Shown here: piece by piece, positions 8,822 to 64,000 of the stretch | Position numbering within the stretch: the first letter of the stretch is position 1 | Layout: each line of letters starts with the position of its first letter | Origin: Catenuloplanes atrovinosus | Lineage (GTDB): Bacteria > Actinomycetota > Actinomycetes > Mycobacteriales > Micromonosporaceae | Assembly (NCBI RefSeq): GCF_031458235.1 | Contig: NZ_JAVDYB010000001.1 | Location: 992,001 to 1,056,000, forward strand | Length of the DNA stretch: 64,000 nt | Direction: 5' to 3' | The notes under the pieces: model-generated | Databases searched by the model: none | What the model was told of the DNA's origin: nothing | What the model saw: the letters and a program-made list of their open reading frames with translations, nothing else | Position numbers and translations under genes: made by a program

Positions 8822-10762
8822 GTGGCACCACCTCAGGGACAGATGCGCCCCGGGCGGCAACTCGCCGTGCTCGGCCTGATCTTCGTCGTCCTCTTCCTCA
8901 TGGTCTTCTTCGTCGGCGGCAAGGGCAGCTTCACCGACCGTCTGGAGCCCAAACTGGGCCTGGACCTGATCGGTGGCACCCGGGTCACGTACACGGCGAC
9001 CACCATGGACGGATCGGACCCGCCGGCGGAGCAGCTCGAAGAGGCCCGTCAGATCATCGAGAGCCGCGTCAACGCGCTCGGCGTCTCCGAGGCGGAGGTG
9101 GTGGTCGAGGGCAACCGGAACATCGTCATCTCGCTGGCCGGCGAGAACCGGGACGATCTGAAGCAGGTCGGTGAGGCCGCCCAGCTGCGCTTCCGGAAGG
9201 TTCTGAAGGCCGCGGACGGCTCCGGTGTCGCGCCGCAGGTCACCGAGACCGCCACGCCGTCGCCGGGCGCGTCCGCGTCGCCCGGCGCCAGCGGCTCCCC
9301 GGCGCCCAGCCCGTCCGGCGCCGCGGTGACCTCCAGCCCGTCCGCCAGCGGCGGCTCGGGCGGCGGCACCGGCGGCCAGGGCGGTGGCGCGGAGGCGACC
9401 CCGACGCCGACGCCGGCCGCGTCCGGCGACCCGTCCGCCACGCCGACCCCGGCCCCCAGCGGCTCCGCGACGCCGGCCCCGGTCAGCACGGACGTGGCCG
9501 CGATCCGCACCGCCATCCAGAAGAAGGTCGGCGACGCCGCCTGGGCCGCCGCGACCGGCCTCCAGGGCGTGGCCGACCTGACCACCGACCCGACCCTGGC
9601 CGAGACGCTGGCGCCGTTCGCCACGCTCAGCCCGGAGACGGAGGTGTGGGCGCTCGACCCGGCCATGCAGTTCAACGTGCCGCAGATCAGCTGCGCGCTG
9701 CTGGACGCGCGCCCGGCCGGCTCGATCGTCGACGAGACCAAGCAGGCGGTCGCCTGTGAGGCCGGCGCGAAGTACCTGCTGGACGTGGCCAAGGTGCTCG
9801 GCACCGACGTCGAGGGCGCCAGCGGCGTGCTCGACCAGCAGACCGGCGACTGGGTGGTCAGCCTCGACTTCACCGGCGAGGGCCAGGAGAAGTGGACCGC
9901 GCTGACCCGCGAGGCGTACAACAACGAGGGCGGCACCTGTGACCAGACCGCGCTCGGCGACGGCAGCCGCTGCCGCGTCGCGGTGGTGCTGGACAACCAG
10001 GTGATCTCCTCGCCGGAGATCCAGGCCGTGCTCACCGGCGACTCGCAGATCACCGGCAGCTTCAACTCCGCCTCGGCGAACGAGCTGGCGTCCAAGCTGC
10101 GGTACGGCGCGCTCCCGCTGACCTTCGTGGCCGACGAGGCGCAGAACGTGTCCGCCACGCTCGGCGCGGAGCAGCTGCGCGCCGGTCTGATCGCGGCCGG
10201 TCTCGGCATGGCGCTGGTGGCGATCTACGCGTTCTTCTACTACCGCCTGCTCGGCACCGTGATCTTCCTGAGCCTGATCCTGTCCGCGCTGCTCACCTAC
10301 GGCGCGCTGATCGTGCTCGGCCGGCAGATCGGCTTCACGCTGACGCTCGCCGGCATCGCGGGCTTCATCGTGTCACTCGGCGTCGCGGCCGACTCCTTCA
10401 TCATCTACTTCGAGCGATTGAAGGACGAGATCCGCGAGGGCCGCAGCCCGCGCAGCGCGGTCGGCCGGGCCTGGACCCGGGCCCGCCGCACGATCATCTC
10501 GGCCAACGCGATCTCGCTGATGGCCGCGGTCGTGCTCTACGTCGTCTCGGTCGGCCAGGTGAAGGGCTTCGCGTTCGCACTGGGTCTGGCCACGCTGCTC
10601 GACCTGATCGTCGTGTTCCTCTTCCGGCACCCGGTGATGACCATGTTCGCCCGGACCAAGGCGTTCCTCTCGCCGCGGGTCAGCGGCCTGGGCCGGGTCG
10701 TGGCCCAGAAGCCGACCGCCGACACCGTCAAGCCGCGCTCGTCGCGCGTGAAGGAGGCCTGA
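8822..10762 (+). CDS. secD: Protein translocase subunit SecD with a Pro/Ser/Thr-rich insert
   Basis: The 646-residue protein starts at GTG 8822 behind TAAAGGAAC. The first transmembrane helix (about 13-33) leads into the large extracytoplasmic region (P1 head and base). Five further helices begin near residue 452 (LRAGLIAAGLGMALVAIYAF). Typical SecD motifs LGLDLIGGTRVTY and GVAADSFIIYFERLKDE are present. With SecF it uses the proton motive force to complete export. The unusual part is residues about 141-221 of the periplasm-side region: almost only P, S, T, A and G, with many TPTP/SPSP steps. secF follows after one nucleotide. Confidence 0.95.
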   Translation: MAPPQGQMRPGRQLAVLGLIFVVLFLMVFFVGGKGSFTDRLEPKLGLDLIGGTRVTYTATTMDGSDPPAEQLEEARQIIESRVNALGVSEAEVVVEGNRNIVISLAGENRDDLKQVGEAAQLRFRKVLKAADGSGVAPQVTETATPSPGASASPGASGSPAPSPSGAAVTSSPSASGGSGGGTGGQGGGAEATPTPTPAASGDPSATPTPAPSGSATPAPVSTDVAAIRTAIQKKVGDAAWAAATGLQGVADLTTDPTLAETLAPFATLSPETEVWALDPAMQFNVPQISCALLDARPAGSIVDETKQAVACEAGAKYLLDVAKVLGTDVEGASGVLDQQTGDWVVSLDFTGEGQEKWTALTREAYNNEGGTCDQTALGDGSRCRVAVVLDNQVISSPEIQAVLTGDSQITGSFNSASANELASKLRYGALPLTFVADEAQNVSATLGAEQLRAGLIAAGLGMALVAIYAFFYYRLLGTVIFLSLILSALLTYGALIVLGRQIGFTLTLAGIAGFIVSLGVAADSFIIYFERLKDEIREGRSPRSAVGRAWTRARRTIISANAISLMAAVVLYVVSVGQVKGFAFALGLATLLDLIVVFLFRHPVMTMFARTKAFLSPRVSGLGRVVAQKPTADTVKPRSSRVKEA

Positions 10763-15378: not shown

Positions 15379-15441
15379 CCACTTTGTGAGCCTCAGGCAC
15401 CTTATTCGCCTGGAATTACGTGCCTGAGCCTCACATAGTCG
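15379..15441 (-). repeat. 63-nt hairpin element, copy A (degenerate, minus orientation)
   Basis: The arms at 15379-15407 and 15413-15441 are separated by a 5-nt loop. Read on the minus strand it matches copy C (63448-63510) closely, including CACGTAATTC in the first arm, GAATAA in the second, and the A.A mismatch. It has several unpaired substitutions (for example TATG versus TTTG), so it looks like a decaying copy. Confidence 0.75.
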
Positions 15442-15926
15442 CTATCGACGATCAGCGCCGTCGCCGATATGCCGAAATTTCGGACGGAGGCTTCGCGTGC
15501 CGGCGGTGTTCATATGGAAAATGTCCGGCCGGGCGGCACCGGATCATGTCGCAGACCGGCAGAGACAGGCCGGTCCGGTCCTCCCGGTGTGCGGGCGATG
15601 CGGCTGCCTGCGCAGGGGCCCCAGGCAAGCCGGTGATCACCTTGATCGGCGCTCAGGGCCCGCGCCGGCGTTCGGCCGGGTGCTTCGGCCGGTCGGCTTG
15701 GTGGCGGCACGCGACTCGGTGAGCTGGGACAGCGGCGCGGCCGGGCGTCCGATGGCCCGGTGGCTGGGGCGATGGTGGCGGGGCGGCGGCGCGGCTGGAC
15801 AGTGGAGGGGCCGGGCGTCCGGTGCGGCGACGCGGCGGTGTGACCGAGAGGCGACGTGACCAGCCGGCGGTATGACCAGGCGGGGCCCCGGCGGTCGCCG
15901 GGAAGGGCGTGCCGGGGGAACGAGAA

Positions 15927-39799: not shown

Positions 39800-40448
39800 A
39801 GAGACGCACCTCCCAGGTGGCGTGGTGTTCGGCGCCGATGTCCAGCAGCGGCGCACCGTCGGCCGGCAACTCGTCGACCGGCTTGTCGAGACAGGTCATG
39901 GCGCGCTCCGCGATCGCGTCGCACTCCGGGGCGAGCCGGGCCAGCAGCGCGTGCACGCCGTACGGGTCCAGGCCCAGCAGCCGCACGGCCGCGCTCGCCG
40001 GGCCGCCGATCGTGCCGTACGCGGCGGCCACCGCGGCCCGCGCCGGTGACACGCCGGCGGCGGAGGCGACCACGCCGAACGCGATCGGCTGGTGCGGGTC
40101 CGCGCGAGGCGGGGCCGGCACCGTCCACATCGCCCGGCCGGCCCGCAGCAGCGCGCGTCCCTGCGCGCGTGAGGCGGCCCGCAGCGCCGGCGACGGCGTT
40201 CGGACGTCGAGCCCACGATCAAGATCTTCCAGCGCCGCGGTACGACCGCAGGCCGCCGCCGCGAACGCCGCCGCCACCAGCCCGCCCGTGGCCAGCCGCC
40301 CGCGCAGGAAGCCGTCCAGGTCCTCGATCGAGCGCACCCGCCCGGCGCTGACCTGCGCCTCCAGGCCGGACGAGTGCGCGTGCCCACCCGCCGGGAGCCG
40401 CCCGTCCGCCAGGACGAGCAGCGTGGCGAGCGAGTCGGTCGCGCCCAT
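39789..40448 (-). CDS. ureF: Urease accessory protein UreF
   Basis: The 219-residue all-helical protein has the UreF marks [22 protein letters not shown] and, near the end, [40 protein letters not shown]. It bridges UreD and UreG during urease activation. Start and ureC stop overlap (ATGA). Confidence 0.92.
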
Positions 40449-42154
40449 CAGAACAGGAAGTAACGCTGGGTCATCGGCAGCGAGTCGACCGGTTGCGGCT
40501 CGACCACGTCACCGTCGATCCGGACCGTGAACGTGTCCGGCTCCACCTCGATCCGCGGCGTGGCGTCGTTCAGCGGCAGGTCGGCCTTGCCCACGTCCCG
40601 CGTGCTGGCGACCGGGACCAGGCGGCGCTTGACGTCCAGCCGGTTCGGCAGCCCGCCCTCGATCGCGGCCTCCGCGACGAAGGCCAGGCTGGTCGCGGCC
40701 GCGGCCGTGCCGTACGCGCCGAACATCGGCCGGGGCAGCATCGGCTGCGGCGTCGGGATGGACGCGTTCGCGTCGCCCATCTGCGCCCACGCGATCATGC
40801 CGCCCTTGATCACCAGCGCGGGGCGGACGCCGAAGAACGCCGGATCCCACAGCACCAGGTCGGCGAGCTTGCCGGGCTCGACGGAGCCCACCTCCCGTTC
40901 GATCCCGTGCGCCACGGCCGGGGCGATCGTGTACTTGGCGACGTACCGCCGGGCCCGGAGGTTGTCCTTGCCACCGTCGCCGGGGAGGCTGCCGCGCCGC
41001 GTCTTCATCACGTGCGCGGTCTGCCAGGTCCGCATGATCACTTCGCCGACGCGGCCCATCGCCTGCGAGTCCGAGCCGATCATGGAGATCGCGCCGAGGT
41101 CGTGCAGCACGTCCTCCGCGGCCATCGTGGTCGGCCGGATCCGGCTCTCCGCGAACGCCAGGTCCTCGGGGATCGACGGCTTCAGGTGGTGGCAGACCAT
41201 CAGCATGTCGATGTGCTCGGACAGCGTGTTCCGCGTGTACGGCCGGGTCGGGTTCGTCGAGGACGGCAGCACGTTCGGCTCGGACGCCACCGTGATGATG
41301 TCCGGCGCGTGCCCGCCGCCCGCGCCCTCCGTGTGGTACGCGTGGATCGACCGGCCGCCGATCGCGGCGAGCGTGCTCTGCACGTACCCCGCCTCGTTGA
41401 GCGTGTCCGTGTGGATCGCGGCCTGCACGCCGGACGCGTCACACACCCGCAGGCAGGCGTCGATCGCCGCGGGCGTGGTGCCCCAGTCCTCGTGCAGCTT
41501 GAACCCGCCCGCGCCGCCGCGCAACTGCTCCCACATGGACTCCTCGGAGACCGTGTTGCCCTTGCCGAGCAGCAGCACGTTCACCGGCCAGACGTCCAGC
41601 GCCTCGAACATCCGGGAGAGATACCAGGCGTTCGGCGTGACCGTGGTGGCCTTGGTGCCCTCGGCCGGGCCGGTGCCACCCCCCATGATCGTGGTGATGC
41701 CGGAGGCGATCGCCTCCTCCAGGATGCCCGGCGCGATCAGGTGCACGTGACTGTCGATCGCGCCCGCCGTGAGGATCTTGCCGTTGCCGGCGATGACCTC
41801 GGTGCCCGGGCCGATCACCAGGCCGGGGTGGACGCCGTCCATGGTGTCCGGGTTGCCGGCCTTGCCCAGCGCGACGATCCGGCCGTCCAGGATGCCGACG
41901 TCGGCCTTGATGATGCCCCAGTGGTCGAGGACGACCGCGCCGGTGATGACGGTGTCGAGCGCCTTCTCCGCGCGGGTCGCCAGCGACTGGCCCATCGACT
42001 CTCGGATGACCTTGCCACCGCCGAAGACGGCCTCGTCACCGCCGCCGCTGCGGTCCTCCTCGACCTCGATCAGCAGATCGGTGTCCGCCAGCCGGATGCG
42101 GTCACCGGTCGTCGGACCGTAGAGCGCGGCGTACCGTCGTCGGTCGATCCTCAT
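40448..42154 (-). CDS. ureC: Urease alpha (catalytic) subunit UreC
   Basis: The 568-residue subunit is complete: the HxH nickel ligands in SHVHLIAPG (about 135-137), the carbamylated Lys in [10 protein letters not shown] (about 217), [10 protein letters not shown], the mobile-flap His in MVCHHLKP and the Asp ligand in [13 protein letters not shown]. It hydrolyses urea to ammonia and carbamate at a dinuclear nickel centre. Its ATG overlaps the ureB stop. Urea from UrtABCDE is the evident substrate supply. Confidence 0.97.
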
Positions 42155-42573: not shown

Positions 42574-42891
42574 CTACGGGATCGGCTCGTGCACGGTGAC
42601 GAGCTTCGTGCCGTCCGGGAACGTGGCCTCCACCTGCACCTCGGCCAGCATCTCCGGCACGCCCTCCATGACGTCCGCCCGGGTCAGCACGGTCCGCCCG
42701 GCCTCCATCAGCTCCGCCACGGTCCGCCCGTCCCGCGCCGCCTCCAGGATGTAGGCCGTGATGATCGCCGTCGCCTCCGGATGATTGAGGCGCAACCCTC
42801 GCTCACGGCGCTTCCGCGCCACCTCCGCGGCGACGTGGATGAGCAGCCGATCCTGCTCGTGGCGGCTGAGGAACAAGACTCCGACCTCCAT
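42574..42891 (-). CDS. ureA: Urease gamma subunit UreA
   Basis: The 105-residue protein has the usual UreA sequence: [35 protein letters not shown] and [31 protein letters not shown]. The ATG at 42891 (MEVGVLF) gives family length; a GTG at 42927 would add 12 unconserved residues. It is the first gene of ureABCFGD. A GlnR-like box lies 63-78 bp upstream. Confidence 0.95.
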
Positions 42892-42953
42892 GTCCGCTGA
42901 CCCGGGTGCGCGCTGATCCGGGCTCACATGGCGACCGATGCTGACACCGGCAC

Positions 42954-42969
42954 GTTTCGTCCCTGTTAA
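42954..42969 (-). promoter_or_regulatory. GlnR-type nitrogen-control box upstream of ureA
   Basis: Read on the minus strand it is TTAAC-AGGGAC-GAAAC. The actinobacterial GlnR consensus is gTnAc-n6-GaAAc: the b-site is perfect and the a-site misses only its first base. After a further 6 bp comes GTGTC, a weaker third a-type site. Urease genes are known GlnR targets in Streptomyces and relatives. Confidence 0.6.
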
Positions 42970-43352
42970 CCCCTCACTGCCCGTTGATCACCACGCTACC
43001 GGCCGCCCCGCCCCACGTACCCACCTTTCGCCCCTCACCCGCCGCGGACGTTCGACATGGTCGAGGCGCCGTGGCGACGAATCGGCGATCCGTGCGAGGA
43101 GGGTCGCCTCGTACGGCGCCTCATCCCGGCCCTCGACATCGGCGGAGGCGTAGCTGCGGGGCTGAAGCGCTGTTCGAGTTTTTGCCGCTAGCGGGCAAGC
43201 GCCGACGGACCGTCCGTCTCGGTTCTGCGGCCCGGAATCGCGGCACCGAACTCTGGCTCAGGACTGCGGGCCGTAGCTGCCGACCGAGCCTTCTGATTTC
43301 GCATCGCCGTGCGAAATCTACCCATAACGTGACGCTGGTTGACCGTCCAATG

Positions 43353-43415
43353 TGGCTTTGTGAGCCGTGGGCACGTAATTCGGCGGGAATAACGTGCCTG
43401 CGGCTCACAAGGTGG
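43353..43415 (+). repeat. 63-nt hairpin element, copy B
   Basis: The arms at 43353-43381 and 43387-43415 surround the 5-nt loop GGCGG. Orientation is as in copy C (CACGTAATTC left, GAATAACGTG right). Compared with C, arm position 15 changes from T-A to G-C, and positions 16 and 17 become G.T wobbles. Pairing is thus preserved despite sequence change. Confidence 0.85.
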
Positions 43416-43571
43416 GTGGCCGGTTGGAGGCGCGGGAATGGTCGCGTTCTTGTGGGCCGTGCGGCGATGGAGGGCGTGGGGGCGGGGGCAGGCAGGGTGC
43501 ACCGCACCCTGGTTGGGGCGTGCGGGGAGAACGAGGGTGGGGGTGAGGAAAAACCGCTTCGGAGGTGTGTG

Positions 43572-44126
43572 GTGAGTCGGCTCTTTGTCGGTGGGCGGGT
43601 CTGGATGCCGGATCCGGTGGACGGGATCGATCTGCGGGTCGAGGGCGGGCGGATCGTCGAGGCGGGGCCGGGGCTGGGCCGGGACGGGGCGGAGGTCGTC
43701 GAGTGCGCGGGGCGGATGGTGGTGCCGCTGTTCGGGGGGCCGGTGCGGGTCGGTGGGGCGGCGACGTTCGCGGTGGTGGAGGCGTCCGAGGGGGCGCAGG
43801 AGATGGTGGTGTGGTGGCCGTCGCGGGGGGTGGTGCTCGTGGTGGACGGGGAGGTCGTGTCGACGGTTGACGCGGTGCCGGGGGGCTCGGCCTCGCCATA
43901 TCTGGGGATGTGGGTCGACCGGACCGGCTACATCCGGCAGGAGCTGACGGCGGACGGGCGGTATGACGAGACGCGGGCCGGGCGGCGGCATGCGTACCAG
44001 GGGGCGTTCCGGATCGATGGGGACCGGATCGTGTACCGGGATGACCAGGGATTCTGGGCCTACGGGCGGTTCGCCGACGGCGTGCTGCACCACGCGGGGT
44101 ACACCTTCGACCGGGGAGCGCGGTAG
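43572..44126 (+). CDS. Atu4866-domain protein with an amidohydrolase-type beta-sandwich N-terminus and no TIM barrel
   Basis: The 184-residue protein starts at GTG 43572, six bases after GGAGG. Residues 1-55 look like the first part of an amidohydrolase beta-sandwich (LFVGGRVWMPDPVDGIDLRVEGGRIVEAG ... GRMVVPLF). This runs directly into what resembles the C-terminal part of such a sandwich (VRVGGAATFAVVEA; GVVLVVDGEVVS), without the metal-binding barrel in between. Residues about 110-184 (LGMWVDRTGYIRQELTADGRYDETR ... AYQGAFRI ... DDQGFWAYGRF ... GVLHHAGYTFDRGAR) match the Atu4866 lipocalin-like domain. A full amidohydrolase gene follows after 2 bp. Function unknown. Confidence 0.75.
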   Translation: MSRLFVGGRVWMPDPVDGIDLRVEGGRIVEAGPGLGRDGAEVVECAGRMVVPLFGGPVRVGGAATFAVVEASEGAQEMVVWWPSRGVVLVVDGEVVSTVDAVPGGSASPYLGMWVDRTGYIRQELTADGRYDETRAGRRHAYQGAFRIDGDRIVYRDDQGFWAYGRFADGVLHHAGYTFDRGAR

Positions 44127-63383: not shown

Positions 63384-63447
63384 GACGAGCAGCCCTAGCC
63401 CCTGTCGGATATTTCGGTATATCTGCCGCACTATTCGATCATCCCTG

Positions 63448-63510
63448 CGACTTTGTGAGCCTCAGGCACGTAATTCCGCGCGAATAACGTGCCTGAGGCT
63501 CACAAAGTCG
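63448..63510 (+). repeat. 63-nt hairpin element, copy C (best conserved)
   Basis: Arms of 29 nt (63448-63476 and 63482-63510) flank the 5-nt loop CGCGC. The left arm starts CGACTTTGTGAGCCTCAGGC and the right arm is its complement except for one A.A mismatch five bases from the loop end of the arm. Related copies lie at 15379 and 43353. Confidence 0.92.
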
Positions 63511-63707
63511 GTGACCAGCAGAAATCACGCAAAATAAGCGCCTTTCCCAATCACCTCGCGGCCCGGCTGCGCAGGCAACGGCAGAAGTTCGCCACCGGCG
63601 GTGCGGGCCGGGCGCGACCCTCGGGTTCACCAGGCACGATCGGCACGTGCCCCCGGTGCGAGGCCGCACCGTGCTTGTTTTCTCGTGCGCCAGCACGTAC
63701 CGCCGCC

Positions 63708-63865
63708 GCCTGGCTGTCCCCGTCGCCGTCGACCCGCCCTTGGGGTGCAGATCATCGGCAGGGCCGCCACCACCGACGAAACCGAAGCCGGCGAGACCAA
63801 AGCTGGCGGCCCTGCCGATGATCTGCTCGGCTTCGCCCGGGAGACGGTGACGGGGACAGCCAGGC
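63708..63865. repeat. Large inverted repeat with 62-bp arms
   Basis: The left arm is 63708-63769 and the right arm 63804-63865, with a 34-bp centre. The outer 23 bp match with one mismatch (GCCTGGCTGTCCCCGTC outermost). The inner 23 bp match perfectly (from GCAGATCATCGGCAGGGCCG at 63747). The 16 bp between them are only partly complementary. Confidence 0.88.
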
Positions 63866-64000
63866 ACACCAGACGCAACCCATCCACCCACGAAAAAACA
63901 GCCGGGCCAACGAACCCCGCCGCGACCGGCAAGCCACGCCCGTCCCCCGGAGCCCGAGGCCCCCCGGAGGGTGCCCGAAAAGCGGCCCACCACCTACAGC

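Follow-up and report, generated by a model that had tools for sequence, protein, structure and literature searches.

The hairpin near the right end of the window (the whole stretch of 64,000 nucleotides analysed here) is one copy of a modular intergenic repeat that occurs many times along the chromosome of Catenuloplanes atrovinosus, mostly between convergent genes. Across species the arms of the palindrome are replaced in a way that preserves their pairing, other palindromes are linked to the same flanking box in congeners, and in one congener (G003) identical palindromes stand in unrelated flanks. The explanation tentatively favoured here is a REP/BIME-like mosaic DNA repeat, specific to the species and either still mobile or mobile until recently, whose apex is read as DNA by a putative trans-acting protein.

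The unit consists of a genus-wide box (GGGCGCTCCGCGCCC-GAAATTTCGNCATAT) on one side, sometimes on both sides, of a long palindrome, whose apex dyad ACGTTAT-N9-ATAACGT is kept across genera and whose outer arms change freely while staying complementary. According to the favoured explanation, such units would be non-autonomous DNA, mobilised in trans, now or until recently, by a putative enzyme or protein, and would build up in convergent gaps, since an insertion there leaves promoters and genes intact. The reader protein would recognise the apex as a duplex, as an extruded cruciform or as a single-stranded hairpin. Mobility and function of the unit are likewise putative.

The repeat unit in the window and along the chromosome

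Copies were searched for in the own genome (G000; 8.9 Mb, a single contig) and in four congeners (G001 to G004), with a covariance model (R1) built from 41 own copies. The window carries the following features.

63448 to 63510, no strand assigned: palindrome of the focal copy, with 29-nt arms, a 5-nt loop and one A-A mismatch (86.8 bits with R1)
63468 to 63490, no strand assigned: core at the apex of the same palindrome, reading ACGTAAT-N9-ATAACGT (variant of the dyad ACGTTAT-N9-ATAACGT)
63407 to 63422, plus strand: degenerate box belonging to the focal copy, GGATATTTCGGTATAT, at a distance of 43 nt from the 59-nt hairpin core
63434 to 63449, plus strand: left dyad flank, TTCGATCATCCCTGCG in the focal copy and about TTGATCGTCCACTGTG in the family consensus (the right flank is complementary in some copies)
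15381 to 15439, no strand assigned: copy 1, in the convergent gap between relA and a cyclophilin gene
15467 to 15483, minus strand: box of copy 1, CCGAAATTTCGGCATAT (G000:1007467-1007483)
43352 to 43416, no strand assigned: copy 2, in a 713-nt divergent gap (42891 to 43605)
43312 to 43327, plus strand: degenerate box of copy 2, CGAAATCTACCCATAA (L057:1957)
63683 to 64000, no strand assigned: start of another dispersed repeat, about 360 bp long (L028:2237-2600), with an inverted box just past the window end (L028:2560)

The preliminary description had reported a 63-nt hairpin in three copies sharing 29-nt arms, a 5-nt loop and a common core, each in an intergenic gap of more than 600 bp. Inspection of the sequence confirmed a hairpin at all three places, and the arm pattern (up to three mismatches) was found six times in the window, as both arms of the three copies, a count reached by none of 100 shuffles (mean 0.00). 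Folded as DNA, the segment 63430-63535 gave -36.2 kcal/mol (z = -9.8; shuffle mean -11.9). The arm and loop lengths held for the focal copy, but copy 1 has 27-nt arms with several mismatches and departs from the quoted core (CACCTTATTC, CCTCACATA), and copy 2 scored below the palindrome cut-off used. The gap lengths were borne out, with gene ends taken from a home-made gene finder: two gaps measured 719 and 1280 nt, and copy 2 stands in the divergent gap given above. The hairpin is real, but the unit also includes the box and the dyad flanks and is larger than 63 nt. The preliminary description did not cover the box, the location between convergent genes, the arm replacement in other species or the other palindromes in the same gaps of congeners. 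Beside copy 2 stand genes that we take to be a urease cluster. The Rfam family 5_ureB_sRNA (RF02514, 57.7 bits) matched the plus strand at window positions 41718-42006, opposite the open reading frame 40448-42154.

The wider unit was delimited on the 41 own copies, oriented by their flanks, with positions relative to the 59-nt core. Conservation spanned from about -60 to about +85. The left side displayed, in order, the GC hairpin GGGCGCTCCGCGCCC, the box GAAATTTCGNCATAT, a diverged spacer of near-constant length and the flank of about TTGATCGTCCACTGTG; the right side displayed about GAGCGATCAATC, then a looser GGAAAGATCACG. The box CGAAATTTCNNNATAT (up to three substitutions) pointed inward within 60 nt in 36 of the 41 copies, at 43 nt in 23 of them, at 44 nt in 10, at 42 nt in two and at 30 nt in one (35 at 42-44 nt). 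The exact box pattern CCGAAATTTCNNNATAT occurred 32 times in G000 (control 0), and 30 of these 32 were within 250 nt of a hairpin. Most copies were one-sided, inward boxes on both sides within 130 nt being found in seven of the 41 (up to three substitutions), four of them clear. Among the 45 boxes listed for G000, no gene-sized segment lay between paired boxes, the longest inward pair within 5 kb spanning about 1 kb. Among G000 copies the arms were the most alike, with a mean pairwise identity of 0.89, followed by the box (0.53), the loop (0.48), the spacer (0.34) and the far flanks (0.30).

The repeat of about 360 bp was about 89-93% identical in four loci (L028, together with L030, L033 and L036, and partly L029), carried a long inverted repeat of its own (GATCATCGGCAGGGCCGCCA) and was located 175-450 nt to the right of five hairpin copies. 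A stretch similar to it was observed in one gap of G003.

The hairpin is not confined to the three copies of the window. At least 49 distinct strong places (at least 56 bits on the better strand) were obtained in G000 with R1, along with two at 36-38 bits and three weaker ones; matches at E up to 1 numbered at least 106 (150 of 1969 candidates scored), and at least 80 were obtained by blastn, both strands counted, with 40 of its 48 candidates scored. This copy number and the lack of a matching Rfam family agree with the dispersed, REP/MITE-like intergenic palindrome first proposed. A second family of G000 palindromes had other arms (TAAAGATGCGTAGAGC, position 9031) around the same core. Place 1589214, one of the two at 36-38 bits, bears the ACGTTATGAGG apex of a second family.

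Copies were unevenly distributed, with five of the 49 strong ones between 2.4 and 5.4 Mb (16.5 expected; the region was chosen after looking). GC skew in 20 sampled windows hinted at an origin near 7.5 Mb, and no dnaA-like start was seen by eye in the first 20 kb of the contig; a marker of origin or terminus was set aside, as the copies are uneven yet not simply centred on the origin. Regarding a plasmid or phage origin, no match was obtained at E 0.01 in 72,556 plasmid and 50,697 phage records, among which those nearest to the genome of the window are possibly absent. One viral contig displayed a short core hairpin, with no palindrome above the cut-off. A known IS terminus was likewise discarded: none was seen, and among eight own neighbour genes checked with Pfam one encoded an IS110 transposase. 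This IS110-family gene (L046:2553-3704, near 165 kb in G000) lies 493 nt from a palindrome copy; IS110 elements can target palindromic repeats. A protein with HTH_38/MarR matches, which looks like a regulator, adjoins a triple copy at 8759 kb.

Relatives in other genera and in congeners

Matches to R1 were detected in at least 17 of 354 genomes of the family and at least 10 of 44 genera, own included, both counts being lower bounds because 14 candidates were scored per genome under strict filters. The arms of these relatives were largely different yet complementary. In the cross-genus alignment (38 sequences), 346 cells were changed on both sides, where shuffles gave 114 +/- 8 and slid controls 58-101, and positions C23, T25, A27 and G43 were invariant. 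Most of these sequences were retrieved by a model in which pairing and core raise the score, a bias from which the loci chosen by box and the plain dyad scan are free. Within G000 alone covariation was modest, with 35 cells changed on both sides against 27 in shuffles, a value reached by 49 of 500 shuffles; the covariation score was reached by none.

The armless pattern ACGTTAT-N7..11-ATAACGT gave 55 sites in nine of 354 genomes and five genera (one site for the reversed control). Among the dyad sites listed, the spacer was 9 nt, or 8 nt in G306 and at one site of G324. Genus g4 was dominated by a single genome (G024), with 14 dyads, the other g4 genomes listed having at most one each. Class-wide, the exact core CGTTATTC-N3-6-GAATAACG was found in the own genome only (one of 394 genomes, three of them of the family), and the control matched one genome. 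A longer pattern returned four stretches from a collection of 84,980 species, two in Haematomicrobium sanguinis and one each in Chimaeribacter and Loigolactobacillus, the latter two looking like short hairpins by eye. The H. sanguinis stretches (L097, L098), from another actinobacterium, are two 61-nt palindromes with the core GCACGTAATTC-N5 and 28-29-bp arms, which may share an origin with the present repeat or be a case of convergence.

Several further observations were made in genus g24. The apex of its palindromes is oriented in L105 opposite to L102 and L118. A CRISPR-like array (36-nt repeat GTCGCAGCTCTCTCGGGAGCTGCCCTTCATTGAGGC) ends near a palindrome copy in L102 (G303) and in L079 (G305), and on the left side of palindromes L077, L103 and L119 stand genes that start like, and presumably encode, small DUF397 proteins.

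The congeners shared the box and displayed other palindromes. With up to one mismatch, the box occurred 10 to 74 times per genome in all five genomes of the genus and once each in two of 36 others (control 0). The own palindrome was found by blastn in none of the four congeners, and R1 matched two places in G002 only, at 52 and 37 bits. An 83-nt palindrome with 39-bp arms gave at least 80 matches in G001, at least 80 in G003 and 24 in G004 (both strands, at most 40 candidates scored), and none in G000, G002 or G024. An inward box (up to three substitutions) was located within 90 nt of the 83-nt palindrome at 24 of 25 loci, mostly at 63-66 or 74-76 nt, and in G001 the box can sit inverted on both sides of it, forming a unit of about 224 bp. 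G002 has 74 boxes without the 83-nt family, some of which adjoin yet other palindromes. Of 17 loci retrieved, 15 had been chosen by the box, and among these 15 only L268 (ACGTTAT) and L261 (ACCTTAT) displayed the core, the rest having other palindromes or none above the cut-off. By eye, a second apex class beside ACGTTAT is made up of the 83-nt palindrome and a shorter one (G003, G002), whose common skeleton reads GATCAYT..GCAAAA..AGGTCAAC-loop.

Orthologous gaps were occupied by different palindromes depending on the species. Between relA and the cyclophilin gene, G000 has the own palindrome and G001 the 83-nt one, with nothing above the cut-off in G003 or G004. Between aroE and an MFS gene, G000 again has the own palindrome and G003 the 83-nt one, with nothing above the cut-off in G001 or G004. 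In a third gap, the palindromes of G003 and G001 differ from each other, and neither G000 nor G004 has one above the cut-off. In G003, nine of ten 83-nt copies retrieved contained an identical 81-mer, and four of these copies stood in unrelated flanks, with flank identities of 20-38% in the same orientation and up to 45% when flipped. Micro- and minisatellites, such as (TTCCAG)n and GCGTTGCG arrays, were observed in the aroE and relA ortholog gaps of G003 (L192-L196) and in L177 and L186, and a 16-bp GGGCGCTGCGCCAGCC array abuts the box in G003 gaps. Contigs C2 and C24 of the draft genome G002 (L254, L255) begin inside the same long hairpin, so palindromes of this kind probably break short-read assemblies.

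Mobile repeat, host site or RNA element

Gene context in G000 was drawn from a crude, unvalidated GC-frame gene finder, which covered 41 of the 49 strong copies: 32 lay between convergent genes, eight between co-directional and one between divergent genes. Across 400 kb of G000, convergent gaps made up 55 of 342 gaps (16%), 21% of intergenic bases and 27% when restricted to gaps of at least 250 nt. Counted by distinct gaps, 29 of 38 were convergent (p <= 4e-10). Gaps bearing hairpins had a median length of 1018 nt, and sampled convergent gaps of 53 nt. Unlike in G000, the 12 palindromes counted in 500 kb of G003 were mostly co-directional (eight +H+, three -H-, one convergent), which may be due to false open reading frames in minisatellites.

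The unrelated flanks around identical 81-mers suggest that these copies were dispersed or homogenised. Against a mobile repeat, neither a target-site duplication nor a clean empty site was found in the ortholog gaps of three congeners, gaps too diverged for ends or empty sites to be defined. The spacer of G000 copies has diverged to 34% identity with arms kept at 89%, a contrast that looks more like long-term selection than like a decaying insertion. The absence of a Y1 transposase from G000 and the terminator-like positions in other genera also count against mobility. A bolder form of the favoured explanation, possible though doubtful, is that of an undescribed actinobacterial class of DNA palindromes with its own putative recognition or mobilisation protein, a fixed apex dyad, rewritable complementary arms, and a genus-wide box that would recruit or bracket the palindrome of each species. 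As part of the same doubtful proposition, ACGTTAT-N9-ATAACGT would be the apex dyad of the own class and other dyads would mark sister classes.

A host DNA site under selection, where a dimeric nucleoid, topology or replication protein would bind the dyad and the long arms would support cruciform extrusion at convergent gene ends, appears rather unlikely. The spacer and arm identities can be taken in its favour, the arms of G000 being 89% identical between a spacer and far flanks that are near random, as can the strong convergent bias in G000 and the recurrence of core and spacer length in nine genomes of five genera. It is opposed by the 337 of 354 family genomes that gave no match (in a search that loses weak matches), by the replacement of arms between species and the other palindromes occupying the same gaps, by the scarcity of copies between 2.4 and 5.4 Mb, a region picked after looking, and by the identical G003 81-mers.

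Mismatches in the stems bear on this host site as well as on an RNA. Among 1066 stem cells of the own copies, non-Watson-Crick pairs comprised 63 same-base, 14 A-C, 10 G-T and eight A-G/C-T; 57 of the 63 same-base mismatches fell in four columns, which fits a duplex read blind to A-T versus T-A. Arm changes exchanged A with T or C with G in 102 of 164 cases (5/30 and 5/32 in two small repeat baselines). The same exchange was also in excess in the box region (145/247) and at four-fold sites (124/152), so that it is not special to the arms and lends little weight to a duplex read. Each arm might be read as DNA, as the mismatch pattern faintly suggests.

The third explanation, an RNA element acting as a bidirectional terminator or as a 3'-end stabilising hairpin common to two convergent genes, is unlikely. 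In its favour, the hairpin is very stable, convergent genes flank 32 of the 41 own copies, and according to excerpts of PMC3733652 an RNA role has been proposed for the REPs of other bacteria. However, only two of 40 G000 copies were within 80 nt of the facing gene end (median 339 nt), compared with 98% of correctly identified sites within 80 bases in excerpts of PMC8355165. The 41-copy consensus lacks a U run, its outer arms terminating in AAAGTGAG or AAAGTGGG, and separate short GC-rich hairpins, presumably ordinary terminators, were found within 20 nt of the facing gene end for eight of 12 palindromes in a G000 sample.

An RNA constraint should favour G-U over A-C, and a G-U preference was absent from the own copies (G-T 10, A-C 14) and slight in the cross-genus set, whose 912 stem cells had 19 same-base, seven A-C, 12 G-T and 10 A-G/C-T mismatches. 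The folded RNA considered in the preliminary description is therefore disfavoured on the own copies, with the cross-genus pairs leaning slightly its way. No Rfam family was placed on the hairpin at gathering score, only sub-threshold matches being returned. In other genera, both neighbours were called for 28 of 35 loci (15 convergent, 12 co-directional, one divergent), and 15 of 34 loci with a facing gene end were within 80 nt of it, some within 15 nt, so that a terminator role stays possible there.

Significance and comparison with known systems

Dispersed palindromes of bacteria are usually explained by REP sequences and Y1 transposases. A REP family of the classical type, spread by a REP-associated tyrosine (Y1/HUH) transposase, would share the intergenic palindromes, convergent bias and species-specific families described in excerpts of PMC3733652, and is nevertheless very improbable here. 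This transposase was missing: Y1_Tnp (PF01797) had no match in the single-contig own genome, the same search being positive in five of 14 control genomes, which largely refutes this explanation. No consistent unpaired GTAG or CGTC tag was present at one end of the palindrome (41-copy consensus GTGACTTTGTG...CACAAAGTGGG, read by eye), and the stem of 27-29 bp contrasts with the 20-40 bp total given for REPs in the excerpts available. A site-specific recombination site for a tyrosine recombinase, with two inverted recombinase arms around a short spacer, is hardly credible, since only its geometry (inverted arms, fixed 9-nt spacer) and the opposite apex in genus g24 speak for it, and a chromosome with about 50 such sites in both orientations would undergo rearrangements.

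An earlier description of the present palindrome repeat was not found in the literature, part of which was available as excerpts, and the main text of the REP survey PMC3733652, as far as available, has no mention of actinobacteria, actinomyc, Streptomyces or Mycobacterium. The wider set of long DNA palindromes with species-specific arms and a constant central motif is apparently undescribed. A single-contig genome lacking the Y1 enzyme contains a rich palindrome system, whose arms have turned over completely and yet stay paired. The 23-bp dyad offers a precise bait for finding the protein involved, and the palindromes may explain assembly breaks in such genomes. If a host protein reads the sites, convergent gene ends gain a sequence-defined feature; if the palindromes are mobile, a mobiliser remains to be found. 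A system that processes hairpins or depends on cruciforms and has no HUH enzyme would, if true, represent a new way of spreading or maintaining short repeats.

Assembly breaks have been reported in a related context: G+C-rich stable secondary structures broke the assembly of Actinoplanes SE50/110 (PMC3364876, in excerpts). These structures are possibly the same kind of obstacle as the hairpins at the G002 contig starts, the repeat family, core and box not being described in the excerpts of PMC3364876.

Intrinsic terminators share with the repeat a hairpin in convergent gaps, often near the facing gene end in other genera; they differ in that G000 copies are mostly far from stop codons, have no U run and carry a sequence-conserved apex. 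MITEs and repeats of the ERIC and Correia types are also small non-coding units, and some copies here have inward boxes on both sides. Membership among MITEs is unproven: no target-site duplication emerged from the diverged ortholog gaps and no partner transposase from the 45 boxes listed for G000, most G000 copies have one box, and the centre, a long palindrome, is the best-conserved part.

In organisation the repeat resembles REP/BIME, which in excerpts of PMC3733652 are dispersed extragenic palindromes in species-specific families, mosaic with other motifs and with a preference for 3' ends and convergent gaps. Many extragenic palindromic copies in convergent or unidirectional gaps were found here as well, and the box, several hairpin families and the 360-bp repeat come together in the same gaps, as in BIMEs. 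Since both the Y1 transposase and the GTAG/CGTC tag are missing, the repeat is not filed as a REP, though it is BIME-like. It differs from REP/BIME by its stem of 27-41 bp, by lacking the tag and, in the own genome, the Y1 transposase, and by what it has in addition: a separate genus-wide box and exchangeable arms around a constant apex dyad.
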